Shown here: positions 9,101 to 29,214 of the stretch, piece after piece
Numbering within the stretch: the first letter of the stretch is position 1
Layout of the letters: every line of letters begins with the position of its first letter
Source of the DNA: Pricia antarctica
Lineage (GTDB): Bacteria; Bacteroidota; Bacteroidia; Flavobacteriales; Flavobacteriaceae
Reading direction: 5' to 3'
DNA: 64,000 nt
Assembly (NCBI RefSeq): GCF_900101815.1
Contig: NZ_FNAO01000004.1
Location: forward strand, 372,001 to 436,000
The notes under the pieces: generated by a model
Seen by the model: only the letters and a program-made list of their open reading frames with translations
What the model was told of the DNA's origin: nothing
Database searches by the model: none
Program-made: the position numbers and the translations under genes

Positions 9101-9706
9101 ACTGAAACTTAACGACAGGCAAAAGGGTTGTGAAGTATCGGCCTTATCGATATAGTCCAAGGCCTGTTGCCCAGTATATCGGGTCAGATGCACGGTATCT
9201 TTCCCCAAGGTTTTGTAGTAATAGCCGCGTCTATCGGCGTATGCATTGTTCCGGTCATACGATTCGAAGTCATGGAACTGTTTGTCGAGATTATCATAGC
9301 GAACGCCATATTTTCCATAGAAAGCCGTTTTGTAGCCGTTATTCTTTAGGATGGTCGGATAGGAATTCTCCATATACGAGGCCCGGATATTGCCCGTTTG
9401 AAAGTTGAAGTTATGGGTGCGTTCGTACAGTCCGGTCAAGATGCTGGCCCTGCTAGCCGCACAAATCGGCGTCGTGACCATGGCATTACTAAAATAGGTG
9501 CCCTCTTTGGCTAGCTTGTCCATTTCAGGTGTCGAAATCAATTCGTTTCCAGCATAGCCCAGGGCATCGAAACGTTGGTCGTCGGTGAGGATAAAGATGA
9601 TGTTGGGTCTGTTAGCGGTTGTATTTGAATTCCGAACCTGCGCGGAAATAGAGTAATATGAAATTAGGTTAGCGAATAGTATAACTAATAAAAAAAGCTT
9701 CTTCAT
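6179..9706 (-). CDS. Bifunctional formylglycine sulfatase / GH78 alpha-L-rhamnosidase
   Basis: 1175 residues. A signal peptide (about 1-22) is followed by an S1-type sulfatase: metal-binding [10 protein letters not shown] near 41, and the formylglycine motif CAASR with Cys82. Since position 3 is Ala, this is the CxAxR variant. From about residue 475 the chain changes to a GH78 layout: N-terminal beta-domain, then the (alpha/alpha)6 core with [16 protein letters not shown], a catalytic-site signature, and a C-terminal beta-domain. The same two-domain arrangement is known in the ulvan locus of Formosa agariphila. The expected role is desulfation and removal of rhamnose-3-sulfate ends. It is preceded by a regulon element and a -7 box, and probably heads the operon through rhaM. 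Confidence 0.92.
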
Positions 9707-9775: not shown

Positions 9776-9783
9776 TAAAAATA
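9776..9783 (-). promoter_or_regulatory. -7-like box for sulfatase/GH78 operon
   Basis: Minus strand TATTTTTA, one mismatch to TAnnTTTG. It begins exactly 21 bp after the end of the 18-bp element at 9805-9822, the same spacing seen at three other gene promoters in the window. The gene start is 69 bp further on. Confidence 0.5.
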
Positions 9784-9804: not shown

Positions 9805-9822
9805 ATCCTGTACCTACCTGTA
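9805..9822 (-). promoter_or_regulatory. 18-bp regulon element, site E
   Basis: Minus strand tacaggtaggtacaggat. It matches the other copies in ACAG, GTAC and AGGAT and lies between two sulfatase genes, upstream of the sulfatase/GH78 gene and pointing towards it. It covers the place where a -33 element would be, so the bound factor would either activate or occlude. Confidence 0.55.
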
Positions 9823-9833
9823 TTAACTAACGC

Positions 9834-11276
9834 TTAGGGGCTGTAGGGTACTGTACCAGTTCTATCCACCGGATAGCCCCATTTTTGGATATACTCCATC
9901 CCGGGAAGAAATTCGTCGCCGTTTTCTTTTAGTCGTTCGGTCAAAAGTCGGTCCAGCTCGGATTGTATGTCGCTATACTGGTCATTGCCTACCAAATTGT
10001 TCATTTGATAAGGGTCATTTTCATTATCGAACAATAGCCATGGGCCGTTCAAATCGCGGGTGTAGGTGTAGTCTTGCGTACGTAATCCACGATACTCCCT
10101 GCCATTGTGCTCTACCCTGTTCCATTGTCCGAAGGGTTGCACGCAGGTAATCAGGGCAGCTCGGTCTATGTCTTCCTTGCCTTCCAAATAGCTTTTGTAA
10201 TTAATTCCTTCTACCGTTTCGGGAATATCAATAGTGCACAATGCCAGTAGGGTCGGCAGAATATCTTCGGAGTTCAGCAAGGCGTCTTTCACGGCCGGAG
10301 CGATACCCAAAGTTTTGGGAATATACCATAACATGGGTACCCGTATGGATTCATCGTAAGGCTGCTGCTTTTTATAGGCGCCGTGGGACCCGAGCAGATC
10401 GCCATGGTCGGAAGTAAAAACGATTATCGTGTTATCCAACTGTCCGGTATTTTTCAAATTGGACATCAAGTTGCCGATCATATCATCGAGTGCCCCAATG
10501 TGGGCGTAATAGCCGGCCAAATCTTTTTTGACCTGTTCTTTCATCTCTTCCGGAACGTTCTCACGCAATTGTATGCTATCCGGATGAAAACGCATTTGGT
10601 AGGCTTCGGGAGCTGTTTGATAGGGGGCATGCGGCGTTCCGTAGGATAAAATCAACGAGAACGGTTTTTTTTCTGTTGTTTGACCCTTCATATAATCAAT
10701 GGCGGCATCGGTCTGGGCAAAGGTGTCGTAACCGTCCCAAATCTTTTTTTCAGGGTCGTTGTTGGCGTAATACACCGAGTGGTTATAATCGTGCGTACAT
10801 TCATTGCCCTTCCAGAAATCAAAGCCCTGTCTTCTTTCTCCAGGTGGGATGAATGAAAGTCGGCCATGCCCGTCCAAATGCCATTTTCCGATATAGCCGG
10901 TATCGTATCCTGCTTTTGAAAATAGTTTACCGAAAGTGACCGCCGCCGTATCCAATTGTACATCGTTCATAAAGACGCCATGGGTGAGCGGTCGCTGCCC
11001 GGTAATAAGGGAAGCCCTGAACGGCGAGCAAACTGGCATACCGGATACGGCATTCTTGAAATTGACGCTTTTTGCGGCCAGACTGTCCAAATTGGGAGTG
11101 CTAATATTGGGGTCTCCGGCGTAACCGGTGGCTTGGGCCCGCCATTGATCGGTAAGGATAATTAGTACGTTGGGGCGTACTTTTTGGTCTGCACTATTTA
11201 CGATATCTTTATTTTGATGATTGCAAGCAACCGAAAATACAATGAACAAGCCCAACCTCCCCATTAATTTCTCCAT
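9834..11276 (-). CDS. Formylglycine-dependent sulfatase (S1 family), lipoprotein or exported
   Basis: 480 residues. The N-terminus (LGLFIVFSVACNHQ) looks like a lipoprotein signal with Cys18, though position -3 is Ser rather than Leu/Val. The sulfatase signature is complete: LTDQWRAQATGYAG near 41 with Asp43, and CSPFR with Cys83 as the residue converted to formylglycine, then ASLITGQRPLTHG. A second metal site appears as FTSDHGDLLGSHGAYKK in the C-terminal half. It probably removes sulfate from rhamnose or uronate in ulvan-type oligosaccharides. It has its own promoter-element pair (site D, 11402-11420). No maturase gene is visible in the window, so activation must rely on one encoded elsewhere. 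Confidence 0.9.
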   Translation of the reverse strand: MEKLMGRLGLFIVFSVACNHQNKDIVNSADQKVRPNVLIILTDQWRAQATGYAGDPNISTPNLDSLAAKSVNFKNAVSGMPVCSPFRASLITGQRPLTHGVFMNDVQLDTAAVTFGKLFSKAGYDTGYIGKWHLDGHGRLSFIPPGERRQGFDFWKGNECTHDYNHSVYYANNDPEKKIWDGYDTFAQTDAAIDYMKGQTTEKKPFSLILSYGTPHAPYQTAPEAYQMRFHPDSIQLRENVPEEMKEQVKKDLAGYYAHIGALDDMIGNLMSNLKNTGQLDNTIIVFTSDHGDLLGSHGAYKKQQPYDESIRVPMLWYIPKTLGIAPAVKDALLNSEDILPTLLALCTIDIPETVEGINYKSYLEGKEDIDRAALITCVQPFGQWNRVEHNGREYRGLRTQDYTYTRDLNGPWLLFDNENDPYQMNNLVGNDQYSDIQSELDRLLTERLKENGDEFLPGMEYIQKWGYPVDRTGTVPYSP

Positions 11277-11372
11277 TTCTAATTGCTTTATAAAGTGTTA
11301 TACTCTATTCTTTTATGATTTTCAGATCTTCAGTTGCTTGCACCTCAGTTTGAACTTTTCAGGAATTATCGC

Positions 11373-11380
11373 GAAATATA
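11373..11380 (-). promoter_or_regulatory. -7-like box for sulfatase gene
   Basis: Minus strand TATATTTC, one mismatch to TAnnTTTG, starting 21 bp after the end of site D (11402-11420) and 96 bp before the ATG at 11276. Confidence 0.5.
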
Positions 11381-11401
11381 AAATCATTTGAGCTAACGGG
11401 C

Positions 11402-11420
11402 ATCCTGTACCGTGCTGTTC
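11402..11420 (-). promoter_or_regulatory. 18-bp regulon element, site D
   Basis: Minus strand gaacagcacggtacaggat (the element plus one flanking base). It shares AACAG, GTACAGGAT and the spacing to the -7 box with the other copies, and points towards the sulfatase gene. Confidence 0.6.
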
Positions 11421-11478
11421 GATGGAAAAAAGAAGGATTGGGAAGCAATCAGGTAGGCCCAGGATACCTATCCTAAAA

Positions 11479-11640
11479 TTTAGTTTTATTCCTACTCCAG
11501 TTTCCGGGTTAAAGAAAAATGGTCAAAAAATCAAGGGTAGTTCAGATATCAAGGTCTTGTCATCTAACGATGATGAAACCGTTTTGGAAGTTGTCTCTGG
11601 CAGCTATTCTTTTGACGGGAATTTTTCTGGACAATCATAA
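11479..11640 (+). pseudogene. Relic of the C-terminus of a GH78 alpha-L-rhamnosidase
   Basis: About 52 codons read in frame to a stop at 11638-11640: GLKKNGQKIKGSSDIKVL and then DDETVLEVVSGSYSFDGNF. This matches the pattern of the C-terminal beta-domain of GH78 enzymes (IP..., xENGKxI..., then VLEVGSGxYxF at the very end). The upstream frame contains nothing of the catalytic domain, and no start codon with a ribosome site precedes it. I infer that a plus-strand rhamnosidase gene once stood here and was mostly deleted. It sits head-on to the DUF1080 gene and between regulon sites D and B. Confidence 0.6.
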
Positions 11641-11662
11641 ATTTTCAATGAATTCCTTTCAA

Positions 11663-11680
11663 AACAGGACAGTACAGGAT
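11663..11680 (+). promoter_or_regulatory. 18-bp regulon element, orphan site B
   Basis: Plus strand aacaggacagtacaggat, identical over all 18 bp to site C upstream of SusC-1 (21430-21447, other strand). A TAATATAG box (two mismatches to TAnnTTTG) begins exactly 21 bp after it, at 11702. No protein gene follows on the plus strand before the terminator at 11760. Confidence 0.6.
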
Positions 11681-11713
11681 GGGGCTTTTTTAAAATTATG
11701 GTAATATAGTCCT

Positions 11714-11791
11714 ATGGAGCCTCATAACCTCCAGGTTGTTTGAGTTAGTTAGTTTATAGGGGGCGAAAAGAAAAATTTCGCCCCTTTTTTT
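11714..11791 (+). ncRNA. Candidate small RNA (about 78 nt) driven by site B
   Basis: The predicted start is a few bases after the -7-like box at 11702-11709, and the transcript would end in the terminator at 11760-11791. The body can form a GGAG (11716-11719) / CTCC (11729-11732) hairpin and leaves a CCTCC tract that could pair with ribosome-binding sites. There is no start codon with a usable reading frame. Alternatively the promoter is a leftover of the gene loss next door and drives nothing useful. The boundaries are inferred, not observed. Confidence 0.35.
11760..11791 (+). terminator. Intrinsic terminator
   Basis: A perfect 9-bp stem (ggggcgaaa at 11760-11768, tttcgcccc at 11776-11784) with a 7-nt loop, followed by seven T. 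The T-tract is on the plus strand, so it ends plus-strand transcription (relic GH78 gene and/or the candidate small RNA). It could act weakly on the opposing DUF1080 transcript. Confidence 0.8.
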
Positions 11792-11800
11792 ATGCCAGGT

Positions 11801-12613
11801 TTAAAGGTTCTTTAAACGAATGTTCCGGTACTCAACGGTCATCGGAGGCCCTACGTGTACTTGAACTCCCAAATATCCAGATGATTTTCGGTTGATGGCA
11901 TCGTCATCGGTAACATCGCTCATCAGCACACCGTTCACATAATGCTGTAATCGATTTCCTTTAACAATCAGGTGAATTTTGTTCCAGTCCTCACTGTTAA
12001 TTTTTGTTTTTAGGGAGTCTGATTCCCCAAGGGATGCGACCACTTCCCTACTCTGCCAACAGTTTTTTTGAACATTGGCGCGTAAGGATCCGGCTTCTTC
12101 TGGATTATCTTGTGAATGTATGATGACCTTCTCCCCCCGATAGGCCAATGTTGTCCTTTTCCTCTCCTCGTAGTTCTGTCCGGTATAGGTGTTTTTTCCG
12201 TCAATATCGGCCTGATAGCCTCGTAGGGCGTGGGGGATAGTATCGATCTGTTCACTGCGATAGTTGATACCACTATTGCCTGTTTCCGCAATTTTAACGT
12301 CCAATTTCAGTTCAAAATCGTCGGGTTGGCCACCTTGCCAGATGATAAAGGTGTTGTTCTTGAGCAGCGTTTCGGGAGTGACCTCACCCGTTAAATTACC
12401 GTTTTTTACACTCCAATAGGTAGGGTCGCCTTCCCAACCTTCCAAGGTTTTACCATCGAAGATTGTTGTGAAACCATCCTTATCCTCATTTGTGGCAACT
12501 TCAGGTTTTTCGGTTGTTTTATCCTTCTTATTTTCACCGCAGGCTTGCAGTACGAAGCATAACGAAATGGTAAACAGCATTTGCAGCGGAATATTCAGTT
12601 TGGATTTTTTCAT
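11801..12613 (-). CDS. DUF1080 (3-keto-disaccharide hydrolase-type) lipoprotein
   Basis: 270 residues from the ATG at 12613; a TTG seven codons upstream is less likely. The lipobox LQACG places Cys near residue 24. The DUF1080 beta-sandwich shows its hallmarks: GFTTIFDGKTLEGWEGD, FELKLDVKIAETGNSGINYRS, and the end VGPPMTVEYRNIRLKNL. Some DUF1080 proteins act on 3-keto-glycosides made by Gfo/Idh enzymes; others may only bind sugar. It is the last gene of the SusC-1 operon, after the FG-GAP protein. Together with the exported Gfo/Idh enzymes and the heme protein it suggests an oxidative step in this locus. Confidence 0.85.
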   Translation of the reverse strand: MKKSKLNIPLQMLFTISLCFVLQACGENKKDKTTEKPEVATNEDKDGFTTIFDGKTLEGWEGDPTYWSVKNGNLTGEVTPETLLKNNTFIIWQGGQPDDFELKLDVKIAETGNSGINYRSEQIDTIPHALRGYQADIDGKNTYTGQNYEERKRTTLAYRGEKVIIHSQDNPEEAGSLRANVQKNCWQSREVVASLGESDSLKTKINSEDWNKIHLIVKGNRLQHYVNGVLMSDVTDDDAINRKSSGYLGVQVHVGPPMTVEYRNIRLKNL

Positions 12614-12751
12614 CTTTTTGATTTCAAATTTCAAGTCAATTTTCGCATTGAAGTTCGTTCATGCGCTCAACTTCTTTTATATCTTTTATTTAATCTTTCT
12701 CCTTGTTTTTGTTTCTTGGCGCTTAATGCTTGATTCTCGGCCCATTTATGG

Positions 12752-13927
12752 TCATTTTTGATCTACCCGTTCATTGTAATAAACGACCAATCCATCCTTG
12801 CCCGCCACTATAATATCTTTTCTACCGTCATCGTTTAAATCGGCAACGCTAAAATAGACACCAGTACCTTTTCCCACTCCATAGGCCCCATAGTCGATGA
12901 CCTGTTTGCTAAAATTCTCACCATTCCAACGAAAATAATAGAGGCCTAATTCGTCGTTTCCGCCGGGATCTTTACCGTTGTGGGCGCGGTATCGCTTGCC
13001 GGTGATCAGTTCGTTGGTTCCGTCTACGTCCAAATCGGCCCATTCCATGCTGTGGTATTGGGAATTGAAAGGGTCGATAGCATGTTTTAGCCATTTTTTA
13101 TCCTTGGCTTCTTCGGGAGTCTGTTCGTACCAATACAGGCCATAATCGTGCCCTTGTCCCACAATCAAATCGTTCAGTCCGTCTTCATTGACATCCACCG
13201 CAAGAACGGGGACGCTGGCCGTACCCAGTTCAAATTCGGAATGGAATTTCCAAAGGGCTTCAAAAGGTTTTTTTGGAGCTTCCAACCAGCCTGAAGGTAT
13301 GACCAGATCTCCCCTCCCATCGCCATTGATATCTCCAAAGCCCAGACCGTGGCCGTGTTTATCGGTAATCGCAAACGATTTGAATTTTCCGGTACCTTTT
13401 CCCTGGTTATCCAAGATGAGACGAAAGATTTTGAGAGAATCATTGGGCGTATTGGGAACGATCTCTACAACGCCATCCCCATCAATATCCCAAGAACGGG
13501 TAGTCTCAATATTACCTACTTCGGCAATAACATGGTCTGCCCACTCGCCTTCATCTCCGGGATTTTCTTTCCATACCAATTTGCCCCCGAACCATCCACC
13601 GGTAACAAAGTCCATATGGCCATCACCATTGACATCCAAAGGAATCGTGGAAAAATCATCGTAATATTCACCATAGCGTTTGGCCGCGCCTATGGCCTGT
13701 CGGATTCTATATTCGGGACCCTCATACCAAAATCCGCCCGAAACTATATCGGGCACCTTATCGTTGTTCACGTCGAATACTCCTACGGATTCATAACTTT
13801 CAGAGGCGATTTTTTTCTTGGTAAAACGTATGGGTGGTGTATTGTTTTTCTGAGGAACATGACCCGATTGACCGACACCATAATTTGTCAACATAAAAAA
13901 TAATAGAACTAAAATCGCGGCTTTCAT
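12752..13927 (-). CDS. Secreted FG-GAP/VCBS beta-propeller protein
   Basis: 391 residues with a signal peptide (about 1-19, ending GVGQS). At least six repeats contain calcium-binding-like motifs: FDVNNDKVPDIVSGG, LDVNGDGHMDFVTGG, WDIDGDGVVEIV, GDINGDGRGDLVIPSG, VDVNEDGLNDLIVG, ADLDVDGTNELITG and ADLNDDGRKDIIVAG. This predicts a seven-bladed propeller covering the whole chain. It starts 15 bp after the heme-protein gene and belongs to the SusC-1 operon. Ulvan lyases of families PL24/25 are also propellers, but I see no evidence of a lyase active site here, so a binding or scaffold role is equally possible. Confidence 0.85.
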   Translation of the reverse strand: MKAAILVLLFFMLTNYGVGQSGHVPQKNNTPPIRFTKKKIASESYESVGVFDVNNDKVPDIVSGGFWYEGPEYRIRQAIGAAKRYGEYYDDFSTIPLDVNGDGHMDFVTGGWFGGKLVWKENPGDEGEWADHVIAEVGNIETTRSWDIDGDGVVEIVPNTPNDSLKIFRLILDNQGKGTGKFKSFAITDKHGHGLGFGDINGDGRGDLVIPSGWLEAPKKPFEALWKFHSEFELGTASVPVLAVDVNEDGLNDLIVGQGHDYGLYWYEQTPEEAKDKKWLKHAIDPFNSQYHSMEWADLDVDGTNELITGKRYRAHNGKDPGGNDELGLYYFRWNGENFSKQVIDYGAYGVGKGTGVYFSVADLNDDGRKDIIVAGKDGLVVYYNERVDQK

Positions 13928-13941
13928 CGGCGGAGCATTTC

Positions 13942-16644
13942 TTATCGCGAAGCCTGTGCCTGATTTCCTCCTTTTGAGTACACAGGGTTATCGGGATTAC
14001 CACCTGCCTTTAGATAGGCCAACAAATCTTTCAGTTCATCAGGATTCATTCTATTGATCAATCCCGCTGGCATGAGGGAAACGGTGGACATCTTTTGGCT
14101 CGTTACTTCGCTTTTGGGAATTTTCCGGGTCAAATCGGGCGCATAGGGGTTTTGGGAAATGACGTAATTGCTATCATCTTCACTGATCAGCCTTCCTACC
14201 ACCGTTTGCCCGTTCTTTAAGGAAAACTCCGTTGCATTATATTGGTCCGAAATGGTTTTGTTGGGTTCTATGATAGCTTCCATCATATCCTCGGGCGTAA
14301 ATCGCGTACCCAACTGGGTAAGGTCGGGACCAATATTTTCGCCTTCACCGCGCATGGCATGACAGGTAACACAGGTCGCTGCGGCATACATGTTTTTACC
14401 ATCCTCAAAATTCCTTCCCTCAAGGCCATCGGCCAATAAGGATTCTACATCCTCAGGCTGCCAGTTTCTTCCGGGACCTTCGGGCTGCTCGGCTTCCTGC
14501 ACCAAATCCGTACCGGAACTTCCGAGTAACGAATCCCCGGAAATGGTATTGTAATATTCGAATTTGTTTTTGGGGACCTGTGATAAGGCAGATTCCCTAG
14601 CTTTATCGATAAATCCGATATAGCTGCGGCCCGCCTTAAATGAAAAGGCCTTGTAAAACCATTTGAAATATTCGTCACGCAGTTCGGGAGTCCAACCTGC
14701 ATTGACACTGTCAAGAACGATACCGTAATAGGTATGCTGGGCCAAGGGCATATTTTTCAAGGTACTGGCAATGTCCATTCCGTATTGTGGGTTCCTCAAT
14801 ATTAGGTCAGAGGCGTCCGTAGCTGTATTTGCCATGACCGAGGCGTTTTCGCCTTCCTGTGATTGTAACAAGGCCAAGGTTTTACTCACGACCTTCGGAT
14901 CATCCAAATAGGCGAGCGTTTTGCTCAAGGATTGGTTCAGTACATCGGTCTTCGCCGGGTAATGGCCTTCTAAATACTGTACGACTTTGTTACTCATTCC
15001 GGATGCGGGCTTGCCAAAACGGGAGATGGTAACCTCAAAGGCCCGCAGCAGGTCTACTTGCTGTATATCCGAAAGTCCATCGTATTTTACCTCCATCATC
15101 GCAATCAACATCCGGTCACGTTGGGATGCGTTTCCATGTCGGGCCAAAGCTATCATGCCTTGAACCATCGCTTCGGGGTCTTTTTCGCTGTATACCCGAT
15201 CCTGCCATTCCTTTACGGGCTGATGCTCTATTGCTATTCTGGCGGCATAGCGCACAAAACGGTCGGTATGTTTTAAGTTGGGCCAAGCGAAATCGACCGC
15301 GCCTTCTATTGGTCCCATATGATAGGTTTCCAATTTTTTACGTAGTGCGTTTTCCTCGGTCTGTTCCGGAGCCGAAGTGGAAGCCAAGGCAGCTTCCTTT
15401 CCTTCTTCATCCTTATAGTACACCCGATAAAGATCGGATTCCAACCGGCGGCCACCGGTCATAAAATACATGGCTCCATCGGGACCAATGACACCATCGG
15501 TCAAGGGAAGTGGTATGCCAGAAACAAATTCCTCCTTTATTCCGGAATAGGTAGCGCCTTCCGGCTTTAGTTCTATGGCGTAGATGATACCGAAGCTCCA
15601 GTCAAAGGCAAAAATGCTATGCTTGTATTTTTCGGGAAATTTGGCATCTTTTCCATAAGAAACGCTGGTCGGAGAGCCTTGGCCGATATTCAACACTGGC
15701 GGCAGGTTGTCTGGATAGGCAGCAGACCATTTTTGGTTGCCCGTACGCCATCCGAACTCGGCCCCACTGGGTACATGACAGATCCGCGTCGGCCGGTACC
15801 AGGGCATGCCCAGGTCCCATTCCATATCCGAATCATAGGTAAACATATCGCCCAATTCGTTAAAGGCCAGATCGAAAGGATTCCGAAAACCGGAAGCGAC
15901 TTGCTCCCATTTTTTTCCTTCGGGATCTATATGGGCGATCCATCCGCCCGGTGCGCCACGATCATTGGCATGGCCACGCGGATCTTTGATCAACGGAAAT
16001 AAATTGTCGTCTTCCCATACCTTGGGAAGCCGATACGAATCCATTTCAGGCATATCGGTATGGTTGCCGGCGATGACGTAAAGGGATTTTTGGTCTGGCG
16101 CCATGACGATACTATGGGGGCCATGCTCGCCTGCGCCGTCCAATTCTTTGAGCAAGGTTATCTTGTCGTATTGGTCGTCGTTGTCCGTATCCTGCAAGCG
16201 GTATAGACCGCTTCCCTTTTCAAACTCGTCATCACTGCGGTGGTTGACCATTACATACAGACTGTTGAACGCATAGAGCAAGCCTTGGGCGTACCCCATC
16301 TGGATTACCGAATCGGCCACTTGTTCCCCGGTTTGAATCTTTAGTTTTTCAATTTTCGGAGTTAGGTTTTCAGAGCCAATCGCCGGTATTTCCATCCGGT
16401 ATAGCGCACCGTACTGATCTGAGGTAATCAAACGGCCCTTATTGTCGAAGGTCATCGCCACCCAAGAACCTTCTTCCTCGTCGCCGGGACTATAGAGATG
16501 CTCCGCCTTAAAGCCCGGCTGCAGTTTCAGCTTGGCCAGTTTCGGGGGCAGGTTTTCGGGGGTTTCATTTTTCGAATCGGAATTAGTAGTACAGGAAATT
16601 GCCAAAAAAGCAATACCTATTAAAATTAACAATCTTCTGTTCAT
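13942..16644 (-). CDS. PVC-type heme-binding lipoprotein (propeller, HEAT-like region, cytochrome c)
   Basis: 900 residues. Lipobox AISCT (Cys18). Residues about 30-430 form a membrane-bound-dehydrogenase/sorbosone-type propeller (WVAMTFDNKGRLITSDQYG, GFRNPFDLAFNELGDMF). The middle, about 450-720, is helical and HEAT-like. Near residue 755 a c-type heme site CVTCH is followed by GEGENIGPDLTQLG and a Met-rich tail (SLMPAGLINRM) that could supply the axial ligand. Such proteins are thought to pass electrons from periplasmic sugar oxidation. It lies 43 bp after SusD-1. It may accept electrons from an oxidative step on the imported glycan; the partner is not proven. Confidence 0.85.
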   Translation of the reverse strand: MNRRLLILIGIAFLAISCTTNSDSKNETPENLPPKLAKLKLQPGFKAEHLYSPGDEEEGSWVAMTFDNKGRLITSDQYGALYRMEIPAIGSENLTPKIEKLKIQTGEQVADSVIQMGYAQGLLYAFNSLYVMVNHRSDDEFEKGSGLYRLQDTDNDDQYDKITLLKELDGAGEHGPHSIVMAPDQKSLYVIAGNHTDMPEMDSYRLPKVWEDDNLFPLIKDPRGHANDRGAPGGWIAHIDPEGKKWEQVASGFRNPFDLAFNELGDMFTYDSDMEWDLGMPWYRPTRICHVPSGAEFGWRTGNQKWSAAYPDNLPPVLNIGQGSPTSVSYGKDAKFPEKYKHSIFAFDWSFGIIYAIELKPEGATYSGIKEEFVSGIPLPLTDGVIGPDGAMYFMTGGRRLESDLYRVYYKDEEGKEAALASTSAPEQTEENALRKKLETYHMGPIEGAVDFAWPNLKHTDRFVRYAARIAIEHQPVKEWQDRVYSEKDPEAMVQGMIALARHGNASQRDRMLIAMMEVKYDGLSDIQQVDLLRAFEVTISRFGKPASGMSNKVVQYLEGHYPAKTDVLNQSLSKTLAYLDDPKVVSKTLALLQSQEGENASVMANTATDASDLILRNPQYGMDIASTLKNMPLAQHTYYGIVLDSVNAGWTPELRDEYFKWFYKAFSFKAGRSYIGFIDKARESALSQVPKNKFEYYNTISGDSLLGSSGTDLVQEAEQPEGPGRNWQPEDVESLLADGLEGRNFEDGKNMYAAATCVTCHAMRGEGENIGPDLTQLGTRFTPEDMMEAIIEPNKTISDQYNATEFSLKNGQTVVGRLISEDDSNYVISQNPYAPDLTRKIPKSEVTSQKMSTVSLMPAGLINRMNPDELKDLLAYLKAGGNPDNPVYSKGGNQAQASR

Positions 16645-16687
16645 GCTGTAAATATTTTTTAACTTTTTCTTCTATGCTCCTAAAGTA

Positions 16688-18181
16688 CTAAAAATTTGGG
16701 TTCAATGAGGATTCGGCTGCAGGAAGCGCATATCGCAGACTGATATTCGAAAATGCATTTGCACGGGGTTCTACGCCTTCGGGATAGTAGTATTCGTTGG
16801 GTGTGGCCTTTATTCGGTTTCCGTAGGCCGTAATTACCTCCACGGCACGACCGGTCCTGACAAGGTCGAACCAGCGTTTGTTCTCAAAGGCGAGTTCTAC
16901 CCTACGTTCCCTATAAATAGCATCCAATAAATCGCCCGAGGCGTCACCGAGTCCGGCACGAGTTCGCACTTCGTTCAAAAAGGTGGCTGCTTCCCCCGAT
17001 TTGCCCTGTTCCTCCAGCGCTTCCGCCATAAACAACAGCACCTCCGAATAGCGATATACCGGCCAGTTCATTCCAGTATTTCCATTCAGCGCATGCGGCT
17101 CAACATATTTTTTGATGATGGGGTACACCCCGTCTCTCCAGAAACTTTCGCTGGCCGTAATATATTGAATGGAGGCCTCTAGTCTTAAATCGCCTGGCTC
17201 ATAGGCCGCTATAATATCCGGTGTGGGGATATTATTACCTTCGCCGTTAAGCGGTTGGGGGTTTGAAGTACCCGTAATCAATCCCACTTCATCGGCCGTC
17301 AGTGGTCGTGGCAGAAAATTGTAGAGAAAACTTCCGTTCAATCCCTCGGCACCTTCCTTGTACTGTACCTCAAATACCGATTCCATATTGTTTTTGTTGT
17401 CGGTGGTACCGGAAAATGCATCGGCATAAATCGGCATCAGGGTATATTCGTTACTGTCGATAATAGCCCTAAGCTGAGTTTCGGCGCCCGCCCAGTTTTT
17501 TTGAACAATATAAGCATTGGCCAATACCGTACGTGCTGCCCCGGAGGTGACCCTTCCGGCCTCCTGTTCCGATTTTGGGGGTAATAATTGTGCGGCCTCC
17601 CCGGCATCGGCTATGATTTGCACATAGATTTCCTCTTCGGATGACAGCGGTAATGCCGCATCTTCACGACCGGCAACCGGAACCAAATGAAGAGGTACAC
17701 TTCCAAAGAACTGCACCAATTCTAAATAGGCGTATGCCCTGAGAAAAAGAGCTTGGCCCTTGAGATTATTCTTGGCAGAGGTGTCAAATTCGGCATCGTC
17801 GATAGTAGCCAATATTTGATTTGCGCGGGCAATTATTTGGTAATCCAGCACGTATTGCTGTCCTACCCAGTTGTTGGCGGTGATTCCGTTATCGCTGGGG
17901 ATGGCAAAGTCGGCAATATCCTCTTGTTGCTCGGTTGCCCCAAAAGCGGTATTTCTGGCATAATAGGTGTTATCGGAATGCATTTCGGCCAAATAGGGCT
18001 TTGCTTGGTTGTTTATCTGACGTAAGGGTACGTAAGCCCCGTTGACGGCCTGTTCAAAATCATCTGCGGTCTTAAAAAAGGTAGGCTCGCTTAATGAATC
18101 CTCTGGGAAAATCGTAAGCTCATCCTCACAACCAACTGTTAGGACGCCCAAAACTAGGAGAAATAGGAATTTATTTTTCAT
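16688..18181 (-). CDS. SusD-like surface glycan-binding lipoprotein (SusD-1)
   Basis: 497 residues, lipobox LTVGCE. The N-terminal segment (FPEDSLSEPTFFKTADDFEQAVNGAY, seen in pieces), a TPR-rich middle (LRAYAYLELVQFFGSVPLHL) and the C-terminal RERRVELAFENKRWFDLVRTG are typical of SusD/RagB. It caps the SusC channel on the cell surface and captures oligosaccharide. The gene lies 67 bp downstream of SusC-1 and is in one operon with it. Confidence 0.95.
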   Translation of the reverse strand: MKNKFLFLLVLGVLTVGCEDELTIFPEDSLSEPTFFKTADDFEQAVNGAYVPLRQINNQAKPYLAEMHSDNTYYARNTAFGATEQQEDIADFAIPSDNGITANNWVGQQYVLDYQIIARANQILATIDDAEFDTSAKNNLKGQALFLRAYAYLELVQFFGSVPLHLVPVAGREDAALPLSSEEEIYVQIIADAGEAAQLLPPKSEQEAGRVTSGAARTVLANAYIVQKNWAGAETQLRAIIDSNEYTLMPIYADAFSGTTDNKNNMESVFEVQYKEGAEGLNGSFLYNFLPRPLTADEVGLITGTSNPQPLNGEGNNIPTPDIIAAYEPGDLRLEASIQYITASESFWRDGVYPIIKKYVEPHALNGNTGMNWPVYRYSEVLLFMAEALEEQGKSGEAATFLNEVRTRAGLGDASGDLLDAIYRERRVELAFENKRWFDLVRTGRAVEVITAYGNRIKATPNEYYYPEGVEPRANAFSNISLRYALPAAESSLNPNF

Positions 18182-18248
18182 TTTATTTGTTTTATATAGT
18201 GATATAAAATGGTTTCAATTATTAAATCCGAAAATCAGTTTTTTTCCC

Positions 18249-21200
18249 TTAAAAATTAAGATTAAGGCCAACGCTGAAAATACGGGGTACCGGATATCCG
18301 GAAATATCGACACCTTGGCTCAGGTTTCCGCCGTCTCCGGTCCCATCAGGCTGTACGCTAATTTCGGGGTTGGGGCCACCCCAGTATTTGGTGAAGATAT
18401 ACACATTTTGGATGGAGCCATAGATGCGGGCGGATTTGAAAAATCGATCCACGCCATCAAGGGTATATCCTAGCGTAATGTTCCTAATATTGAAATAGGA
18501 AGCGTCCGCAATGAAACGGTCGTTTATCCAATCCCTTTCAATACCGGTAACATTCCCACCTCCGACGGTGGTTCCATAAAACCCCCTACCCGGATTTTCC
18601 ACCGATCGGAAACGATATTTCACATCGTTCACCAAATTGAACACGCCGTCAAGATTGGCCGTGCTGTACAAATGGCGGACCAGCAATTGGTTGCCTTGGG
18701 AACCTGTGCCTATTACCGAAAAATCAAAATTTCCGTATTTGATAGTGTTCGTTATACCGTACGTAAAGTCGGGAAACGGACTGCCCATAATGGCCCTGTC
18801 ATCGTCGTCTCCCCCATTGGTAATGATACCGTCACCGTTGAGGTCCAACAATTTTATGCTGCCCACGGTAGAACGACCGGGTACCTGGGGCGAACTGTCA
18901 AGATCTTGCTGATTTAAATAGACCCCATCGGAAAGATGGCCATAGAATTGGCCGAAGGGCTCGCCGACCTTGGTAATATGGAAACGACCGTAAACACGGT
19001 CAATACCTTCTGCCAAGGCTACAACCTCATTTCTATTGAACGAGATATTGGCATTGGTCGTCCATCGAAATTTTCCGGTAGTGTTTATGGTGTTCAGCGC
19101 AAATTCGTGACCCCAGAAATGAATTTCCCCAATATTATCGCTGAAGTTAGAGAAACCCGATTCTTGGGGTACTTGAACATTATATAATAAATTCGTAGTG
19201 TTCTTGGTGTAATAGTCGTACAAAAATGAAACTCTATCGTTGAACAAGCTTACATCAATACCGGCATCGAACTGTTTGGTCGTTTCCCAGCCCAAGTTAG
19301 GGTTTGCCAAGGAGGTCACCGCCGATCCGGGAGCAAGGTCGTTTCCAAAAGCGGCGTTCACAGTATTGTCGATAAGCGCATATTGGGTGTAATTACCAAT
19401 GTTATTGTTTCCTGTGACCCCGTAGCTGGCTCTAATTTTCAAAAGGGACACCGGTTCTACACTTTCCATAAAACCTTCATCGGAGATAATCCAACCGGCA
19501 GATACCGATGGAAAGGTACCCCAACGATTCTCGGAACCGAATCGCGATGAACCATCGCTACGTACCGATGCCGTAAACAAGTACCTGCCTTTATAGTTAT
19601 AGGTCAGTCTTGAAAGAAAGGAAACCAAACTCCATTCCTGCACTCTATCATAAGTACCGTTTCGATCAATGTTAGCGGCCCCTTGGATGGTTGGCAAACG
19701 GTCGTCGGCAAAATTACTGGCTTGTACCCTATTAAAATCCCTACGGAACTTTTGAAAGGTAAATCCTCCCAAAAGTGAAAAATTATGATCTCCAAAACTT
19801 TTGGTGTAGGTCGCCAAGTTTTCGTTCAGCCAAGAAAAATCGTTAGTATCTTCCCAAACTGCCCGCGAATCCGTAGGAATGGGAACGTTAATACTAGAAG
19901 TAGCCGTAGTAGGACTAAAAAGCTCGTACCTTGAATTATACAGCTCGGCATTCAAACTTGTTTTTATGATCAGACCCTCAATCGGTTCGTACTCCAAAAA
20001 GGCGTTGGTCAATAAATTAACATCTTTGGTTTCATTAACAATCTGTTTGGCCGAGGTAATCCAGTTGGCGTAGGAGAAAATGTTACCTGTTTCCGCGGGA
20101 AACCTATTAAACTCGGTCAAAGAACCATCAGGCTTGTAGATGGGCATGATGGGCCAGGTGTGTAAAGCGTTAAATAGAATTCCTGTTCCTCTTTCCCCAT
20201 CCGTTCTTGGCGTGTTATCTTTTATGTAGGAAGGTGCCACATTGAGACCGATTCGTATTTTATCGGATATTAGATAATCCATATTTGCCCGAAGCGAATA
20301 GCGGCGATAATCTGAATTTATGACGACTCCGTCTTGTTTAAAAAAGCCTGCCACCATGGAGCTACGAAGTTTTTCTTTGTTTGAGGTAATGGTCAGGTTA
20401 TAGTTTTGCACCGGTGCCGTTCTCAGCAGGGCATCATACCAGTCATTGGTCTTACCTTCATATTGCGATGGGTCCTGGAAAATTTCGGGAACTGGATCGC
20501 CTTGATCGGTATAGTACTCCTTTTTAAATTGAGCGAATTCAACGGCATCCATCATATCGATCCTGCCCCGCTGCGGTACCTGCTGAATTCCCGTGGAAGT
20601 GTTGAAGCTGATGTTAGTCTCACCGGGAACTCCCGTTTTAGTGGTAATTAAAACAACCCCGTTAGCAGCTCTAGAACCGTACAAAGAAGTAGACGCGGCA
20701 TCTTTAAGAACTGAAATATCTTGGATTTCATCAGGGTTTAAAGCACCTATTCCGCCAGTGATGGGGAAACCGTCTACAACATAGAGTGGGTCGCTACCTC
20801 CCGAAACAGATAACTGACCTCTTATACGTACCGACATACCCTGACCGGGTTTGCCTGTGGTTTGATTGATTTGAACCCCGGCCAGTTTACCTTGTAGTTT
20901 CTGTGTAACCTGTGAAACGGGAATGTCCGCCAGCTCTTGAGCATCAATTGTCTGTACCGCGCCCGTTACCTGTCGTTTAATTTGGGTACCATACCCCACC
21001 AGCACCACTTCGTCTAGCGCAGTCGCATCTTCTGCCATGGAGATGTCAATCTGTGTTTTACCGTTCACCGGCACTTCTTGCATCGCAAACCCGACATAGG
21101 TAAATACCAAGGTGGCGTTATCCCCGGAAACGGAAATGCTGTATTTGCCATCAAAATCGGTAACCACTCCATTCGTAGTTCCTTTTTCGACCACATTGAC

Positions 21201-21335
21201 ACCGGGAAGGCCCAAACTGTCATCTGCCGAGGTGATAGTGCCGGTAATAGTCTTGTCCTGTGCATGCGCCGGTAACCACAGGAGCAAGGCAAAAACAACG
21301 CATAGTGTTTTTAGACTCGTGTAGATTTTTTTCAT
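18249..21335 (-). CDS. SusC-like TonB-dependent transporter (SusC-1)
   Basis: 1028 residues. Signal peptide (about 1-25, ending PAHAQ), then a carboxypeptidase-D-like plug extension (ITGTITSADDSLGLPGVNV), the TonB box region ending LDEVVLVGYGTQ, the plug (LQGKLAGVQINQTTGKPG, LYVVDGFPI, EIQDISVLKDAASTSLYGSRA) and a 22-strand barrel ending VGLNLNF. It imports glycan fragments with SusD-1. It heads a five-gene operon (SusC, SusD, heme protein, FG-GAP, DUF1080). The promoter at 21401-21408 with regulon site C indicates control with the sulfatase and rhamnose units. Confidence 0.96.
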   Translation of the reverse strand: MKKIYTSLKTLCVVFALLLWLPAHAQDKTITGTITSADDSLGLPGVNVVEKGTTNGVVTDFDGKYSISVSGDNATLVFTYVGFAMQEVPVNGKTQIDISMAEDATALDEVVLVGYGTQIKRQVTGAVQTIDAQELADIPVSQVTQKLQGKLAGVQINQTTGKPGQGMSVRIRGQLSVSGGSDPLYVVDGFPITGGIGALNPDEIQDISVLKDAASTSLYGSRAANGVVLITTKTGVPGETNISFNTSTGIQQVPQRGRIDMMDAVEFAQFKKEYYTDQGDPVPEIFQDPSQYEGKTNDWYDALLRTAPVQNYNLTITSNKEKLRSSMVAGFFKQDGVVINSDYRRYSLRANMDYLISDKIRIGLNVAPSYIKDNTPRTDGERGTGILFNALHTWPIMPIYKPDGSLTEFNRFPAETGNIFSYANWITSAKQIVNETKDVNLLTNAFLEYEPIEGLIIKTSLNAELYNSRYELFSPTTATSSINVPIPTDSRAVWEDTNDFSWLNENLATYTKSFGDHNFSLLGGFTFQKFRRDFNRVQASNFADDRLPTIQGAANIDRNGTYDRVQEWSLVSFLSRLTYNYKGRYLFTASVRSDGSSRFGSENRWGTFPSVSAGWIISDEGFMESVEPVSLLKIRASYGVTGNNNIGNYTQYALIDNTVNAAFGNDLAPGSAVTSLANPNLGWETTKQFDAGIDVSLFNDRVSFLYDYYTKNTTNLLYNVQVPQESGFSNFSDNIGEIHFWGHEFALNTINTTGKFRWTTNANISFNRNEVVALAEGIDRVYGRFHITKVGEPFGQFYGHLSDGVYLNQQDLDSSPQVPGRSTVGSIKLLDLNGDGIITNGGDDDDRAIMGSPFPDFTYGITNTIKYGNFDFSVIGTGSQGNQLLVRHLYSTANLDGVFNLVNDVKYRFRSVENPGRGFYGTTVGGGNVTGIERDWINDRFIADASYFNIRNITLGYTLDGVDRFFKSARIYGSIQNVYIFTKYWGGPNPEISVQPDGTGDGGNLSQGVDISGYPVPRIFSVGLNLNF

Positions 21336-21400
21336 AATAGTGTTCAGTAATTAGGTTAGAAATCCTTTTTTATTGAAATAAAAATTTATTGGATTAAGTT

Positions 21401-21408
21401 CAAATATA
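21401..21408 (-). promoter_or_regulatory. -7 box for SusC-1 operon
   Basis: Minus strand TATATTTG, perfect match to TAnnTTTG, 66 bp before the ATG and exactly 21 bp after site C. Confidence 0.65.
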
Positions 21409-21429
21409 TTCGACCAATTGAAACTTCGC

Positions 21430-21447
21430 ATCCTGTACTGTCCTGTT
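21430..21447 (-). promoter_or_regulatory. 18-bp regulon element, site C
   Basis: Minus strand aacaggacagtacaggat. It is identical to orphan site B on the plus strand at 11663-11680, 10 kb away, which argues for selection on the sequence. It points to the SusC-1 operon. Confidence 0.65.
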
Positions 21448-21763
21448 AAAATTTTAAGGAACAAGAAAGATGGAGAAACAAATAAGCCAAATCACCCCCC
21501 TTATTTGTCTCTCAACGACAGTTTTACCGGTCCTAATAATCCAGAAGGCATCAAGGGAGATGCTGAAAGCAAAATATTAGGACTCTTTGACACTAAGCCT
21601 GAAACCGGCTTTCTTACCCTTTTTTCGTCTTTCTTCGATATTTTTTGCCAAGGTAGCTCGCTATGTTTGGCGAAAACCGCTCTAAAATCTGAAAACCTTC
21701 CTGCCAACGGGCAGAATTAATGAAATGATCCGTGACTTCTGTTTAGTGCTAACAGGCTCTGGT
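21448..21763. other. Intergenic stretch without recognised gene
   Basis: 316 bp between the SusC-1 promoter element and the end of the GntR-type regulator gene. Both strands contain short open frames (up to about 100 codons from a TTG) but none has a ribosome site, family signature or coding-like composition that I can recognise. It may be gene debris or a dispersed noncoding element. Confidence 0.5.
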
Positions 21764-22810
21764 TTACAGCGATTCCCTATCGATAAAATTAAACGGATTC
21801 TTTACCTTCCCCTTGGTTTTATCCAAAATCATACGCGCTGCAGTCTCGCCCATCATTTTAAAATCCGTAGAAATACAGGTAATGCCCAAGAGTTCCTTTA
21901 GAGGCGTATCGTTATAGGATATTACCCCGATATCACCGCCCAAAGAAAATTCCTTTTCGCGGATCTGGTTGACCAAATTGACAAGATCAGATTCCTCTAT
22001 CGTGATAAAAAGATCTCCCTTTTTAAGGATGATATCGTCGTAAATCTCTTCGAGTATCTCAAAATCAAGGGAGAATTCAAGGCAAAATTTTCGAAATCCG
22101 TGTAAAATCCTTCTCGGATAGGGATAAACCGAGTTTTCAGGATAGACCAAAAACAATTTTTCGTACTTCTTAATTTTTTGCAGCCCGTGCTGTAATGCAT
22201 TGTAGATATCATTCTCAAAGTCCTGATAAATTTCGATAAAGGCCTTTTCAATGGCCAGTTTGTTATTGTCCATGATTACCAATTTATCCTTCGCGATTTT
22301 ATTGATGGCCGTTACCACCTCGTCCGTATAACTAATATGCTTCAGGTCTTCGGTCTTGAAATGAGGCATGATGATGTAATAGTCATAGGCATTCCTGTTT
22401 TTTTCCAGCAGATTTAGGAACAAAGAATTGTCACAATGGTAGATATGCAGGTCGGTGTGCGAATTACCGCCGATACTATTTACAAAGCTGTTGTAGATAC
22501 GCATCTTGTACGTGCTCAACTTATTAATCATAAATAGGATGTTAACTTTCGATAGCAACTTCGTACGGGTAATATAATAGCCTTTTCCCCTGATGGAAGT
22601 GATTATCTGTCGCTCTTTTAGGATGGAATATGCTTTTTCAACGGTATCTCTCGAAAGTAGATATTCTTCGCTGAAACTATTGATAGAGGGTATTTTTTGA
22701 TCTATGTTCAGCTTGCCGACCGAAATATTATGGATGATAGAGTCAACGATTTGCCTATATTTAGGAATTCTCGATTGACCGTCGATTTCTACATACTTAA
22801 AAATGTCCAT
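21764..22810 (-). CDS. GntR-type regulator with sugar-binding (LacI-like) sensor domain
   Basis: 348 residues from the ATG at 22810, which begins MDIFKYVEIDGQSRIPKYRQ, the usual start of the winged helix; an upstream in-frame extension lacks family residues. Residues 1-75 are the GntR DNA-binding domain (SINSFSEEYLLSRDTVEKAY, then IRGKGYYIT). Residues of about 90-348 resemble a periplasmic-binding-protein sensor (DYYIIMPHF, GDIGVISYND, TDFKMMGETAARMIL). It is divergent from the rhamnose operon with regulon site A in the gap. It is the best candidate to bind the 18-bp element and respond to L-rhamnose or a catabolite. This assignment is from position, not proof. Confidence 0.85.
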   Translation of the reverse strand: MDIFKYVEIDGQSRIPKYRQIVDSIIHNISVGKLNIDQKIPSINSFSEEYLLSRDTVEKAYSILKERQIITSIRGKGYYITRTKLLSKVNILFMINKLSTYKMRIYNSFVNSIGGNSHTDLHIYHCDNSLFLNLLEKNRNAYDYYIIMPHFKTEDLKHISYTDEVVTAINKIAKDKLVIMDNNKLAIEKAFIEIYQDFENDIYNALQHGLQKIKKYEKLFLVYPENSVYPYPRRILHGFRKFCLEFSLDFEILEEIYDDIILKKGDLFITIEESDLVNLVNQIREKEFSLGGDIGVISYNDTPLKELLGITCISTDFKMMGETAARMILDKTKGKVKNPFNFIDRESL

Positions 22811-22882
22811 GGTTCTCGTCTTAGGAATCGGTAAGGTAACGAACTCTTTTAAAATAATGCATTCTCCCTTTATTTTACGATT

Positions 22883-22900
22883 ACAGTACAGTACAGGATA
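22883..22900 (+). promoter_or_regulatory. 18-bp regulon element, site A
   Basis: Plus strand tacagtacagtacaggat, in the gap between the GntR-type regulator and the rhamnose operon. It lies 21 bp before a TATTTTAG box and 56 bp before the operon's first ATG. It could also affect the regulator's own promoter on the other strand. Confidence 0.65.
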
Positions 22901-22921
22901 CAAACCTTAATTTCACATCTT

Positions 22922-22929
22922 ATTTTAGC
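22922..22929 (+). promoter_or_regulatory. -7-like box for rhamnose operon
   Basis: TATTTTAG, one mismatch to TAnnTTTG, beginning 21 bp after the end of site A. The predicted leader is only about 20 nt. Confidence 0.5.
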
Positions 22930-22956: not shown

Positions 22957-25062
22957 ATGGGCAATACGGTCAAACAATTCAATTACGTAGACTACTTATG
23001 GGATGAAAAGAAAGCGGCAGAACTGGGCAACGATCAGGTCGAGCTGTTTTTATACCGCTCCAATATACTTGGTGCCGATCTGAGGATAACCAATTATGGG
23101 GGCGGAAACACAAGTTGCAAGACCATAGAAAAAGACCCCTTGACCAATGCCGAAGTTGAGGTGATGTGGATAAAAGGTTCCGGTGGCGATATCGGCACCT
23201 TGACCAAAAAAGGGATTGCGGGATTGTACACCGAACGCCTCCGCAACCTGAAGGATGTCTACGGGGGCCTTGAAGATGAAGACCGCATGGTCGGCCTTTT
23301 CAACCATTGTATTTATGATTTGGAGAGTAAGGCACCATCGATCGATACGCCATTACACGGCTTACTTCCTTTTAAACATATAGATCACCTGCACCCCGAT
23401 GCCTTAATTGCAGTGGCCGCTGCGAAGGATAGTGAAAAAGTGACCAAAGAAATTTGGGGCGATACGATGGGATGGGTGCCTTGGCAACGTCCCGGTTTTG
23501 ATTTGGGACTGCAATTGGAAAAATGTTTGAACGATAATCCCGGTATCCGGGGTATCGTTCTGGGCAGTCACGGCCTGTTTACTTGGGGCGACACTTCCTA
23601 TGAATGTTATATGAACAGTTTGGAGGTCATCGAAACGGCATCCGAATATGTCGCAAAAAGAATCGAAGAAAACGCTAGTGTTTTTGGAGGCAAAAAAATC
23701 GAAAGCCTGCCACAAAAAGAACGTAAGGAAAAAGCGGCGCAGCTTATACCCATATTACGTGGACTCTGTTCCGCTGAAAATAGGATGATCGGCCATTTTA
23801 ACGATAGTGATACGGTGCTGGAATTTATCAACAGCAACGATATGCAACGCTTGGCGCCCATGGGCACTTCTTGCCCCGATCACTTTCTACGCACGAAAAT
23901 CCAGCCGTTGGTACTCGAACTTGATGCCAACGCCGACCTTTCTAATACCGATGCGGTTTTGAAGCAACTAAAACCGGCTTTTGAAAAGTATAAAAAGGAG
24001 TATGCGGACTATTATTCTTCCCATAAACACCCGAACAGTCCCGCCATGCGCGATGCCAGTCCCGTAATCATCATCTATCCAGGAGTCGGCATGTTCAGTT
24101 TTGCAAAAAACAAACAGACGACTCGGGTCGCCAATGAATTTTATGTCAACGCCATCAATGTGATGCGCGGTGCCGAGGCGATTACCGAATACACATCTTT
24201 ACCGAGACAAGAAGCCTTTGATATCGAATATTGGTTGCTGGAAGAGGCCAAGCTACAACGCCAGCCCCAGGAACAACCCTTGTCCCGAAAAGTAGCTTTG
24301 GTTACAGGTGCAGGTGGCGGAATCGGAAAGGCCATCGCTGATAAACTGGCCGAAGAGGGTGCTAACGTGGTACTTACGGATATTGCCGAAGACCGTTTGC
24401 AGGAAGCCCTGAAAACCTTCGGAAAGGATACCGCCAGCTATGCCGTCTGCGATGTGACCCAAAACGAATCGATTGCCGATGCGTTCAAAAAGGCCTGTCT
24501 CGATTTTGGAGGCGTCGATATCGTTGTGCATAGTGCGGGACTCGCCATCTCAAAACCGCTCGAGGAAACCACTGAAAAAGATTGGGACCTGCTGCAGAAC
24601 GTGCTCGTGAAGGGTCAATTCGAACTCGCCAAACAGGCCGTTGCTATCATGCGCAAGCAGGATTTGGGAGGGGATTTCATCAGTATCGCCAGTAAAAACG
24701 GACTCGTATCCGGCCCAAATAACGTGGGCTACGGCACCGCCAAAGCGGCGCAGCAGCACATGGCGCGTCTCTTGGCCGCCGAACTGGGCGGGGATAAGAT
24801 CCGCGTGAACACGGTAAACCCCGACGGCGTTATCGTCGGCAGTAAGATTTGGGAAGGGGATTGGGCCGAAGGCCGGGCCAAGGCCTATGGTATTACCGTT
24901 GAGGAACTCCCCGCACACTACGCCAAAAGAAACCTATTAAATGAAATTATTTATCCCGAAGATATCGCCAACGGGGTTTTTGCCTTGGTCGGTATTTTAG
25001 ATAAAAGCACCGGAAATATTATCAATGTGGATGGTGGAATGGCGAATGCTTTTGTACGGTAA
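22957..25062 (+). CDS. rhaEW: Bifunctional L-rhamnulose-1-phosphate aldolase / L-lactaldehyde dehydrogenase (RhaEW type)
   Basis: 701 residues. About 1-435 is a class II aldolase/adducin domain (NYGGGNTSCKTIEKDP, VMWIKGSGGDIGTL, GLFNHCIYDLE, LGSHGLFTWGDT with zinc-type histidines). About 440-701 is a short-chain dehydrogenase (VTGAGGGIGKAIADKL near 448; catalytic Tyr592 and Lys596 in YGTAK; INVDGGMANAF at the end). The aldolase splits rhamnulose-1-phosphate to DHAP and L-lactaldehyde; the second domain oxidises the latter to L-lactate. The length and domain order fit the known fused enzyme (relative of B. subtilis YuxG). First gene of the operon and directly after regulon site A. Confidence 0.93.
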   Translation: MGNTVKQFNYVDYLWDEKKAAELGNDQVELFLYRSNILGADLRITNYGGGNTSCKTIEKDPLTNAEVEVMWIKGSGGDIGTLTKKGIAGLYTERLRNLKDVYGGLEDEDRMVGLFNHCIYDLESKAPSIDTPLHGLLPFKHIDHLHPDALIAVAAAKDSEKVTKEIWGDTMGWVPWQRPGFDLGLQLEKCLNDNPGIRGIVLGSHGLFTWGDTSYECYMNSLEVIETASEYVAKRIEENASVFGGKKIESLPQKERKEKAAQLIPILRGLCSAENRMIGHFNDSDTVLEFINSNDMQRLAPMGTSCPDHFLRTKIQPLVLELDANADLSNTDAVLKQLKPAFEKYKKEYADYYSSHKHPNSPAMRDASPVIIIYPGVGMFSFAKNKQTTRVANEFYVNAINVMRGAEAITEYTSLPRQEAFDIEYWLLEEAKLQRQPQEQPLSRKVALVTGAGGGIGKAIADKLAEEGANVVLTDIAEDRLQEALKTFGKDTASYAVCDVTQNESIADAFKKACLDFGGVDIVVHSAGLAISKPLEETTEKDWDLLQNVLVKGQFELAKQAVAIMRKQDLGGDFISIASKNGLVSGPNNVGYGTAKAAQQHMARLLAAELGGDKIRVNTVNPDGVIVGSKIWEGDWAEGRAKAYGITVEELPAHYAKRNLLNEIIYPEDIANGVFALVGILDKSTGNIINVDGGMANAFVR

Positions 25063-25173
25063 TTTATTAATGTCTGGCATATTTCCGGGCTGTTTGGAGC
25101 AATAAAATCTAACTTGACTGCTCTATTCCAAATAGGATAACAGGACAACATGGATAAGAACAGGCTAAAATGA

Positions 25174-26460: not shown

Positions 26461-26484
26461 AAATAGGACTATAGGAACACTACT

Positions 26485-29200: not shown

Positions 29201-29214
29201 AAACCCAACCACCC

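Follow-up and report, generated by a model that had tools for sequence, protein, structure and literature searches.

The question raised by this locus is why one 18-bp element recurs before sugar-degradation genes of the marine flavobacterium Pricia antarctica, and which protein reads it. The window, meaning here the whole stretch of 64,000 nucleotides that was analysed (positions 372,001 to 436,000 of contig NZ_FNAO01000004.1), contains five copies of the element, each followed by a TAnnTTTG-like −7 promoter box. It also contains a gene for a GntR-type regulator (21764-22810, minus strand), divergent from a rhamnose catabolic operon that begins with rhaEW. The element is probably the operator of this adjacent, rhaR-like regulator, which would activate a rhamnose regulon in class II fashion.

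All five elements listed in the original prediction were found in a pattern scan of the window, and the claimed gap of 21 bp between element and named box proved exact in every copy. Four copies matched the predicted pattern without mismatch, at 11402-11419 (minus strand), 11663-11680 (plus), 21430-21447 (minus) and 22882-22899 (plus). The copy at 9805-9822 (minus) had been given the same pattern and carried two mismatches to it. The coordinates were right in four cases; the rhamnose-operon copy had been placed at 22883-22900, off by one. This last copy, in the rhaEW operon promoter, consists of two ACAG(G/T)AY repeats 10 bp apart and is followed by the box TATTTTAG (22921-22928, plus), from which a start near 22933 is predicted, given the box position described in PMC9723704. 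The SusC-1 operon promoter has the box TATATTTG (21401-21408, minus), the sulfatase promoter TATATTTC (11373-11380, minus) and the sulfatase/GH78 promoter, which holds the copy with two mismatches, TATTTTTA (9776-9783, minus). The copy at 11663 forms an orphan promoter without a gene downstream, with the box TAATATAG (11702-11709, plus). All five boxes are sigma-A-like. The element points in the direction of the downstream transcript in the four gene-linked copies, so that the claim of constant orientation holds for these; no target had been named for the fifth.

With up to three mismatches the window gave seven pattern matches, against a mean of 0.98 in shuffled sequence, and none of 100 shuffles reached seven. 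The two extra three-mismatch matches, at 14974 and 30911, had no −7 box, and the match at 30911, before SusC-2, was for that reason rejected as a sixth site. A position weight matrix (PWM) built from relatives recovered exactly the five sites in the window at a score of at least 10 with the box required. The same matrix found no element with box in 50 dinucleotide shuffles of the window. The letters of the element alone are not specific, since the host genome had 123 matches with up to three mismatches and 64 for the reversed pattern, but the element plus box is. Of 18 places in the genome with at most two mismatches, the five of the window had the box and the 13 others did not, nor did any of the 12 three-mismatch places elsewhere whose locus was examined. 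Once the box is required, the element is therefore not equally common at unrelated sites.

We then turn to the family, where 397 genomes of Flavobacteriaceae were searched with the box-free pattern ACRGNAYNGTACAGGAY. It was present in 61 genomes, and the reversed pattern gave four matches in all. The regulator had an orthologue, defined by a best E <= 1e-100, in 79 of the 397 genomes and in 54 of the 61 with the motif (Fisher 3e-39). Genomes with distant homologues only (1e-20 to 1e-100) lacked the motif in all 88 cases. Among the 95 genomes with rhaEW, the motif occurred in 54 of 78 with an orthologue versus 0 of 17 without one; thus the motif tracks the regulator and not the rhamnose pathway. 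The co-occurrence supports the predicted common regulon, and together with the co-divergence described below it argues for the GntR-type protein as the probable binder.

The element could instead be read by an unseen factor, such as a response regulator, an AraC-type protein or an extracytoplasmic function (ECF) sigma factor, the GntR gene being a linked passenger. Direct-repeat sites, the form the element takes, are known for response regulators. Surveyed rhamnose regulators, which likewise control rhamnose genes including rhaEW, fall into twelve groups of the AraC, DeoR and LacI families, GntR being unmentioned in the main text of the survey, and the motifs of the DeoR-type RhaR among them are direct repeats at 10-11 bp (PMC3870299). 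A passenger gene fits poorly with a motif that follows the GntR orthologue rather than rhaEW, and also with what happens where the regulator has diverged. Seven genomes have a diverged homologue, 41-44% identical, next to rhaEW. The rhaEW promoters of these loci (L265-L271) gave only weak best PWM matches (−5.7 to 10.5), with the box at 21 bp in all seven, the background for TANNNT being 0.031. These matches are nevertheless related sequences, and four of the seven end in (A/G)CAGAAC, for example TCAGAACTGTACAGAAC. Eight rhaEW promoters have no regulator beside them (L272-L279), and in all eight the best PWM match was boxless; two of the 17 rhaEW genomes lacking an orthologue (G209 and G299) fell outside this promoter comparison. 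Diverged regulators beside rhaEW thus appear to be accompanied by a diverged element at unchanged 21-bp spacing. The box logo, TAnnTTTG, is moreover of sigma-A type and not the CGT-type −10 box of ECF sigma promoters (PMC9723704). We consider an unseen factor quite unlikely.

To assess the spacing between element and box, the family search and other loci yielded 93 unique exact sites, 86 in orthologue genomes and seven in genomes without an orthologue. When they were aligned on the element alone, the TAnnTTTG box emerged 22-29 bp downstream. TAnnnT stood at exactly 21 bp in 80 of the 86 sites (17 at the next best offset) and in none of the seven. In 80 named loci, 143 sites reached a PWM score of at least 16, of which 124 had the box at 21 bp, whereas the reversed sequence gave five sites and none with a box. 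The 19 sites without it comprised, from lists read by eye, 12 array, upstream or out-of-register copies, five with the box at 22 bp, one at 20 bp and one with none. Spacer identity was 0.31-0.42 for the rhaEW, SusC1, transporter and unlabelled sites, reaching 0.51-0.72 in three groups of 4-8 sites, and 119 of the 124 spacers were distinct; spacer length is therefore conserved while the letters drift. A minority spacing of 22 bp was seen at L195, L203, L206, L224, L228, L280, L281 and L066, L280 and L281 being from orthologue genomes.

Since the −7 box occupies −12 to −5 relative to the start (PMC9723704), the element spans about −51 to −34. It thus lies at the −33 position, and could be taken for an ordinary −33 promoter box with some chance similarity. 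However, GGAT stood 21 bp before other TAnnTTTG boxes in only 3 of 1898 cases, within a range of 2-13 over gaps of 14-29 bp, and was on this count rejected as an ordinary −33 box. The co-occurrence with the regulator also speaks against it, as does the contrast in the 21-bp box (80 of 86 sites against 0 of 7), and we give this explanation practically no weight. A chance motif was likewise dismissed, on the co-occurrence, the box at 21 bp and the shuffled-window control. TTG at −33 was found in at most 3 of the 86 sites at any gap of 15-24 bp. A site beside or over the −35/−33 region, at fixed spacing and in fixed orientation, as seen here, is characteristic of class II activator sites. The kept distance over a drifting spacer, the missing −33 TTG and the absence of GGAT as a general −33 box all lend support to the earlier suggestion of an activator-like geometry replacing the −33 region.

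The 18-bp element is real, although its internal structure had been missed: it is a direct repeat with a period of 10 bp. Over the 124 sites the direct repeat scored 0.69 and a dyad 0.54, with seven position pairs each. In six SusC promoters (L153, L156, L161, L178, L181 and L185) four ACAGGAY-type repeats follow one another at exactly 10 bp, equivalent to two elements in tandem; the SusC target of L153 was assigned by reading its leader and the other five from gene comparison. A palindromic operator was accordingly rejected as the main description. The better score of the direct repeat and the four-repeat arrays point to head-to-tail binding of the regulator. Such sites have parallels. Bacteroides hybrid two-component systems (HTCS) and SusR-like regulators also use direct repeats before genes of polysaccharide utilization loci (PULs), but at about 21 bp (HTCS) or at 67 or 77 bp (SusR-like) rather than 10 bp, and they belong to other protein families (PMC3878776). 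MocR-type GntR activators such as GabR and PdxR share the GntR winged helix-turn-helix (wHTH), act as activators of divergent operons and in many cases recognise direct repeats, whereas their sensor is aminotransferase-like and their repeats are two or three helical turns apart, against one turn here (PMC5320631).

The regulator combines an N-terminal GntR wHTH (PF00392), detected in all 28 aligned orthologues at E <= 0.001, with a LacI-type effector domain (Peripla_BP_3), detected in 26 of them. A structure model based on the 28 sequences had a mean pLDDT of 88.8 and a pTM of 0.70. Most of its top Foldseek matches were proteins of LacI type, for example the Lac repressor (1efa; E 5.2e-13, TMq 0.56). 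The wHTH of the regulator is similar to the arabinose repressor chain 4egy. The nearest named relative, a Pricia metagenome-assembled genome (MAG), was 91% identical in the regulator. The DNA-binding domain is GntR and not AraC, DeoR or LacI, which separates the protein from the surveyed rhamnose regulators. AraR-type regulators, for example that of Bacillus subtilis, have the same architecture of GntR wHTH and effector part of LacI-type fold, as well as sugar catabolic targets. AraR, however, is a repressor acting on palindromic operators, whereas the sites here are direct repeats at a fixed upstream position. With the direct repeat scoring above the dyad and six four-repeat arrays, we would not file the regulator as AraR. 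A literature search over titles and the beginnings of abstracts found no account of this regulator or operator. Each part taken alone, a GntR regulator, a LacI-type sensor or a class II site, is of a known kind; their combination here is new.

We suggest the following model, in which binding and positive control are inferred from the geometry. Two regulator protomers, charged by rhamnose or a rhamnose-derived metabolite as the signal, would bind the ACAGGAY-type repeats head-to-tail, one helical turn apart and in one orientation. They would sit at about −51 to −34, in place of the −33 box, contacting a single face of the DNA next to the −7 box. From there the regulator would stand in for the −33 contact and bring in sigma-A polymerase at the TAnnTTTG box, which lies 21 bp further downstream. 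The regulon would comprise the rhamnose catabolic operon, the SusCD uptake operon, the sulfatase gene and the sulfatase/GH78/GH88 genes, together with a short transcript that is probably non-coding.

The main rival is that the same GntR/LacI-type protein represses, its operator blocking polymerase over −33 until rhamnose releases it. The element does cover the −33 position, so an operator there could also act in this way. AraR is a GntR repressor. AusR of Zobellia galactanivorans, like the present protein a GntR regulator of a polysaccharide pathway in a marine flavobacterium, is reportedly a repressor too, of alginate catabolism. A repressor, on the other hand, needs neither a single orientation nor a 21-bp spacing that is kept despite spacer drift, no −33 TTG is left under the element, and GGAT is not a −33 box elsewhere. 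Repression is thus improbable in our view, though less so than the other alternatives.

Besides the precedents for repression, several observations weigh against the activator reading or limit its evidence. Sites and genomes share descent, and the genomes used to train the PWM partly overlap the named loci, although the box was never part of the training. Exact motif letters were missing from 25 of the 79 orthologue genomes; the locus was examined in eight of these, and in seven a version with 1-3 mismatches lay on the regulator's locus. The box at 21 bp was absent from 6 of the 86 sites, and 10 of the 80 named loci had no site with a PWM score of at least 16 and the box at 21 bp. GGAT before other boxes peaked at 20 bp (13 of 1898), which we take as noise. 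Most promoters have two repeats: among 243 promoter sites just 13 scored as having a third, and on average the registers of repeats three and four stood near background. A weaker partial dyad, CNGTACNGTACNG, is also present in the element, and GntR proteins generally bind inverted repeats (PMC5320631).

The genes behind the window copies were named by Pfam and NCBIfam profiles. The rhamnose operon (22957-30630, plus) encodes rhaEW, a rhaI-like protein, a rhamnulokinase-like protein, an FMN-dependent lactate dehydrogenase-like protein and an NCS1-like transporter; only rhaEW reaches the NCBIfam cut-off. The SusC-1 operon (11801-21335, minus) runs SusC1, SusD1, a cytochrome c domain protein, an FG-GAP protein and a 3-keto-disaccharide hydrolase, and its gene order is identical in L237 and L167/L243. 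Two further copies precede a sulfatase gene (9834-11276, minus) and genes for a sulfatase-GH78 fusion, a GH88 protein and a Gfo/Idh/MocA-type oxidoreductase (3679-9706, minus). Together these genes suggest that the substrate is ulvan or some other sulfated rhamnose-uronate polymer. In relatives, the 124 sites of the named loci were classed by comparing the first downstream gene with the window proteins. That gene was rhaEW-like at 64 sites, SusC1-like at 18 (12 with at least 50% identity), sulfatase-GH78-like at eight (six with at least 50%) and transporter-like at six (five with at least 50%). It resembled the KduI-like protein 38820 at four sites, the sulfatase at four (all below 50%) and the 3-keto-disaccharide hydrolase at one. 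At 15 sites the first gene had no match in the window, and at four no open reading frame was found.

The site and box of the fifth copy had been correctly identified, with its target left open and the short transcript behind it overlooked. No gene of ordinary size lies in the stretch that the 11663 promoter faces. A strong intrinsic terminator with 11 pairs (six G-C) and a T-run (11758-11786, plus) is predicted 49-77 bp past the box, shortly ahead of where the convergent SusC operon ends. Because promoter and terminator, judged by sequence, are its own, no ordinary gene intervenes and the layout recurs in five other genomes, we regard the product as a candidate small RNA of about 77 nt, probably non-coding. 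Its predicted ends are 11714 and 11790 (plus), and it would consist of a 5′ hairpin, TTGAGTTAGTT and the terminator. A similar layout of element, 21 bp, box, short leader and terminator was found in the Pricia MAG (L152), G002 (L237), G191 (L116), G053 (L167/L243) and G378 (L242), the last with a weaker element. In five of the six genomes the RNA is encoded on the strand opposite to the 3-keto-disaccharide hydrolase gene, past the 3′ end of that gene. Among 12 such gene ends examined, the layout was within 260 bp in four and slightly farther in G378; two of the flanks were truncated. The stretch TGGAGCCTCATAACCTCCA is common to the window and G002 RNAs, and terminator stems are kept among the copies though their letters differ. 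The 5′ hairpin is plausible; in a covariation analysis limited to five sequences its observed score was reached by 256 of 500 shuffles.

A leaderless micro-frame could also begin here. The predicted start base coincides with an ATG or GTG in three of the copies, that of the window and those of two relatives. The window RNA has a nine-codon frame, MEPHNLQVV (11714-11740), and L116 a GTG frame of equal length and place. L152 and L237 have frames of 34-35 codons running into or past the terminator, with (M/V)E-x-HNL kept; this string is common to the three Pricia genomes. Since the frame differs among the six copies and is absent from two (L167 and L242 have none beyond three codons), such a frame seems less likely than an RNA. 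A covariance model of the 5′ part, whose training included the Pricia MAG from outside the 397-genome set, found only four of the 397 genomes below E 1e-4, all of them in the training, which speaks for a narrow distribution of the RNA. A further 26 genomes at E 0.007-0.1 look like chance, and G378 was unmatched. When the RNA region was compared as DNA with 60 genomes, it returned itself and four short fragments (one in its own genome), and an Rfam scan of the window gave no match there. No target is claimed from duplex energies: measured against 500 random windows, the best of 37 start regions (−24.8) passed the 5% mark and fell short of the 1% mark.

The sequence TTGAGTTAGTT (11740-11750 in the window) also recurs elsewhere, for instance in L153-L164, L168, L178, L182, L185 and L191, soon after stop codons and before a hairpin. 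It frequently stands behind rhaEW (the rhaEW-like end GC(A/C)TTTGTA precedes it in 12 of 27 unique contexts), as if it were part of a flavobacterial 3′-end signal.

A broader proposal is held more tentatively, at somewhat under even chances. It is that a GntR/LacI-type regulator, acting as a head-to-tail activator on decamer direct repeats (two, sometimes four), serves the rhamnose/ulvan regulon across Flavobacteriaceae and in some genera also turns on a dedicated small RNA, about 70-95 nt long and in most cases encoded convergently where the SusCD operon has its 3′ end. If so, that RNA would tie sugar sensing to post-transcriptional control of the PUL. The short transcript of the window would then count as an RNA linked to the PUL and controlled directly by sugar. 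The regulon itself would be a defined one for rhamnose in marine flavobacteria, which consume algal polysaccharides, with both regulator and operator named, where the survey PMC3870299 lists only AraC, DeoR and LacI regulators. Its fixed geometry would permit sequence-based regulon prediction in many genomes. The promoter would be a natural and probably rhamnose-inducible one for these organisms, and it would become testable in what way a wHTH of GntR type joined to a LacI-type sensor can bind direct repeats and activate.

Some further features of the window were observed. A sulfatase and a GH78 alpha-L-rhamnosidase are fused in one protein (6179-9706), and a PVC-type heme/cytochrome c domain protein is encoded within the SusCD operon (13942-16644). 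The only Rfam match in the window was a tRNA gene within the sugar gene cluster (36273-36343). The transporter at 29152-30630 had a weak NCS1 match, and its homologues are those found behind the element at six sites of named relatives; we consider it a candidate rhamnose permease.

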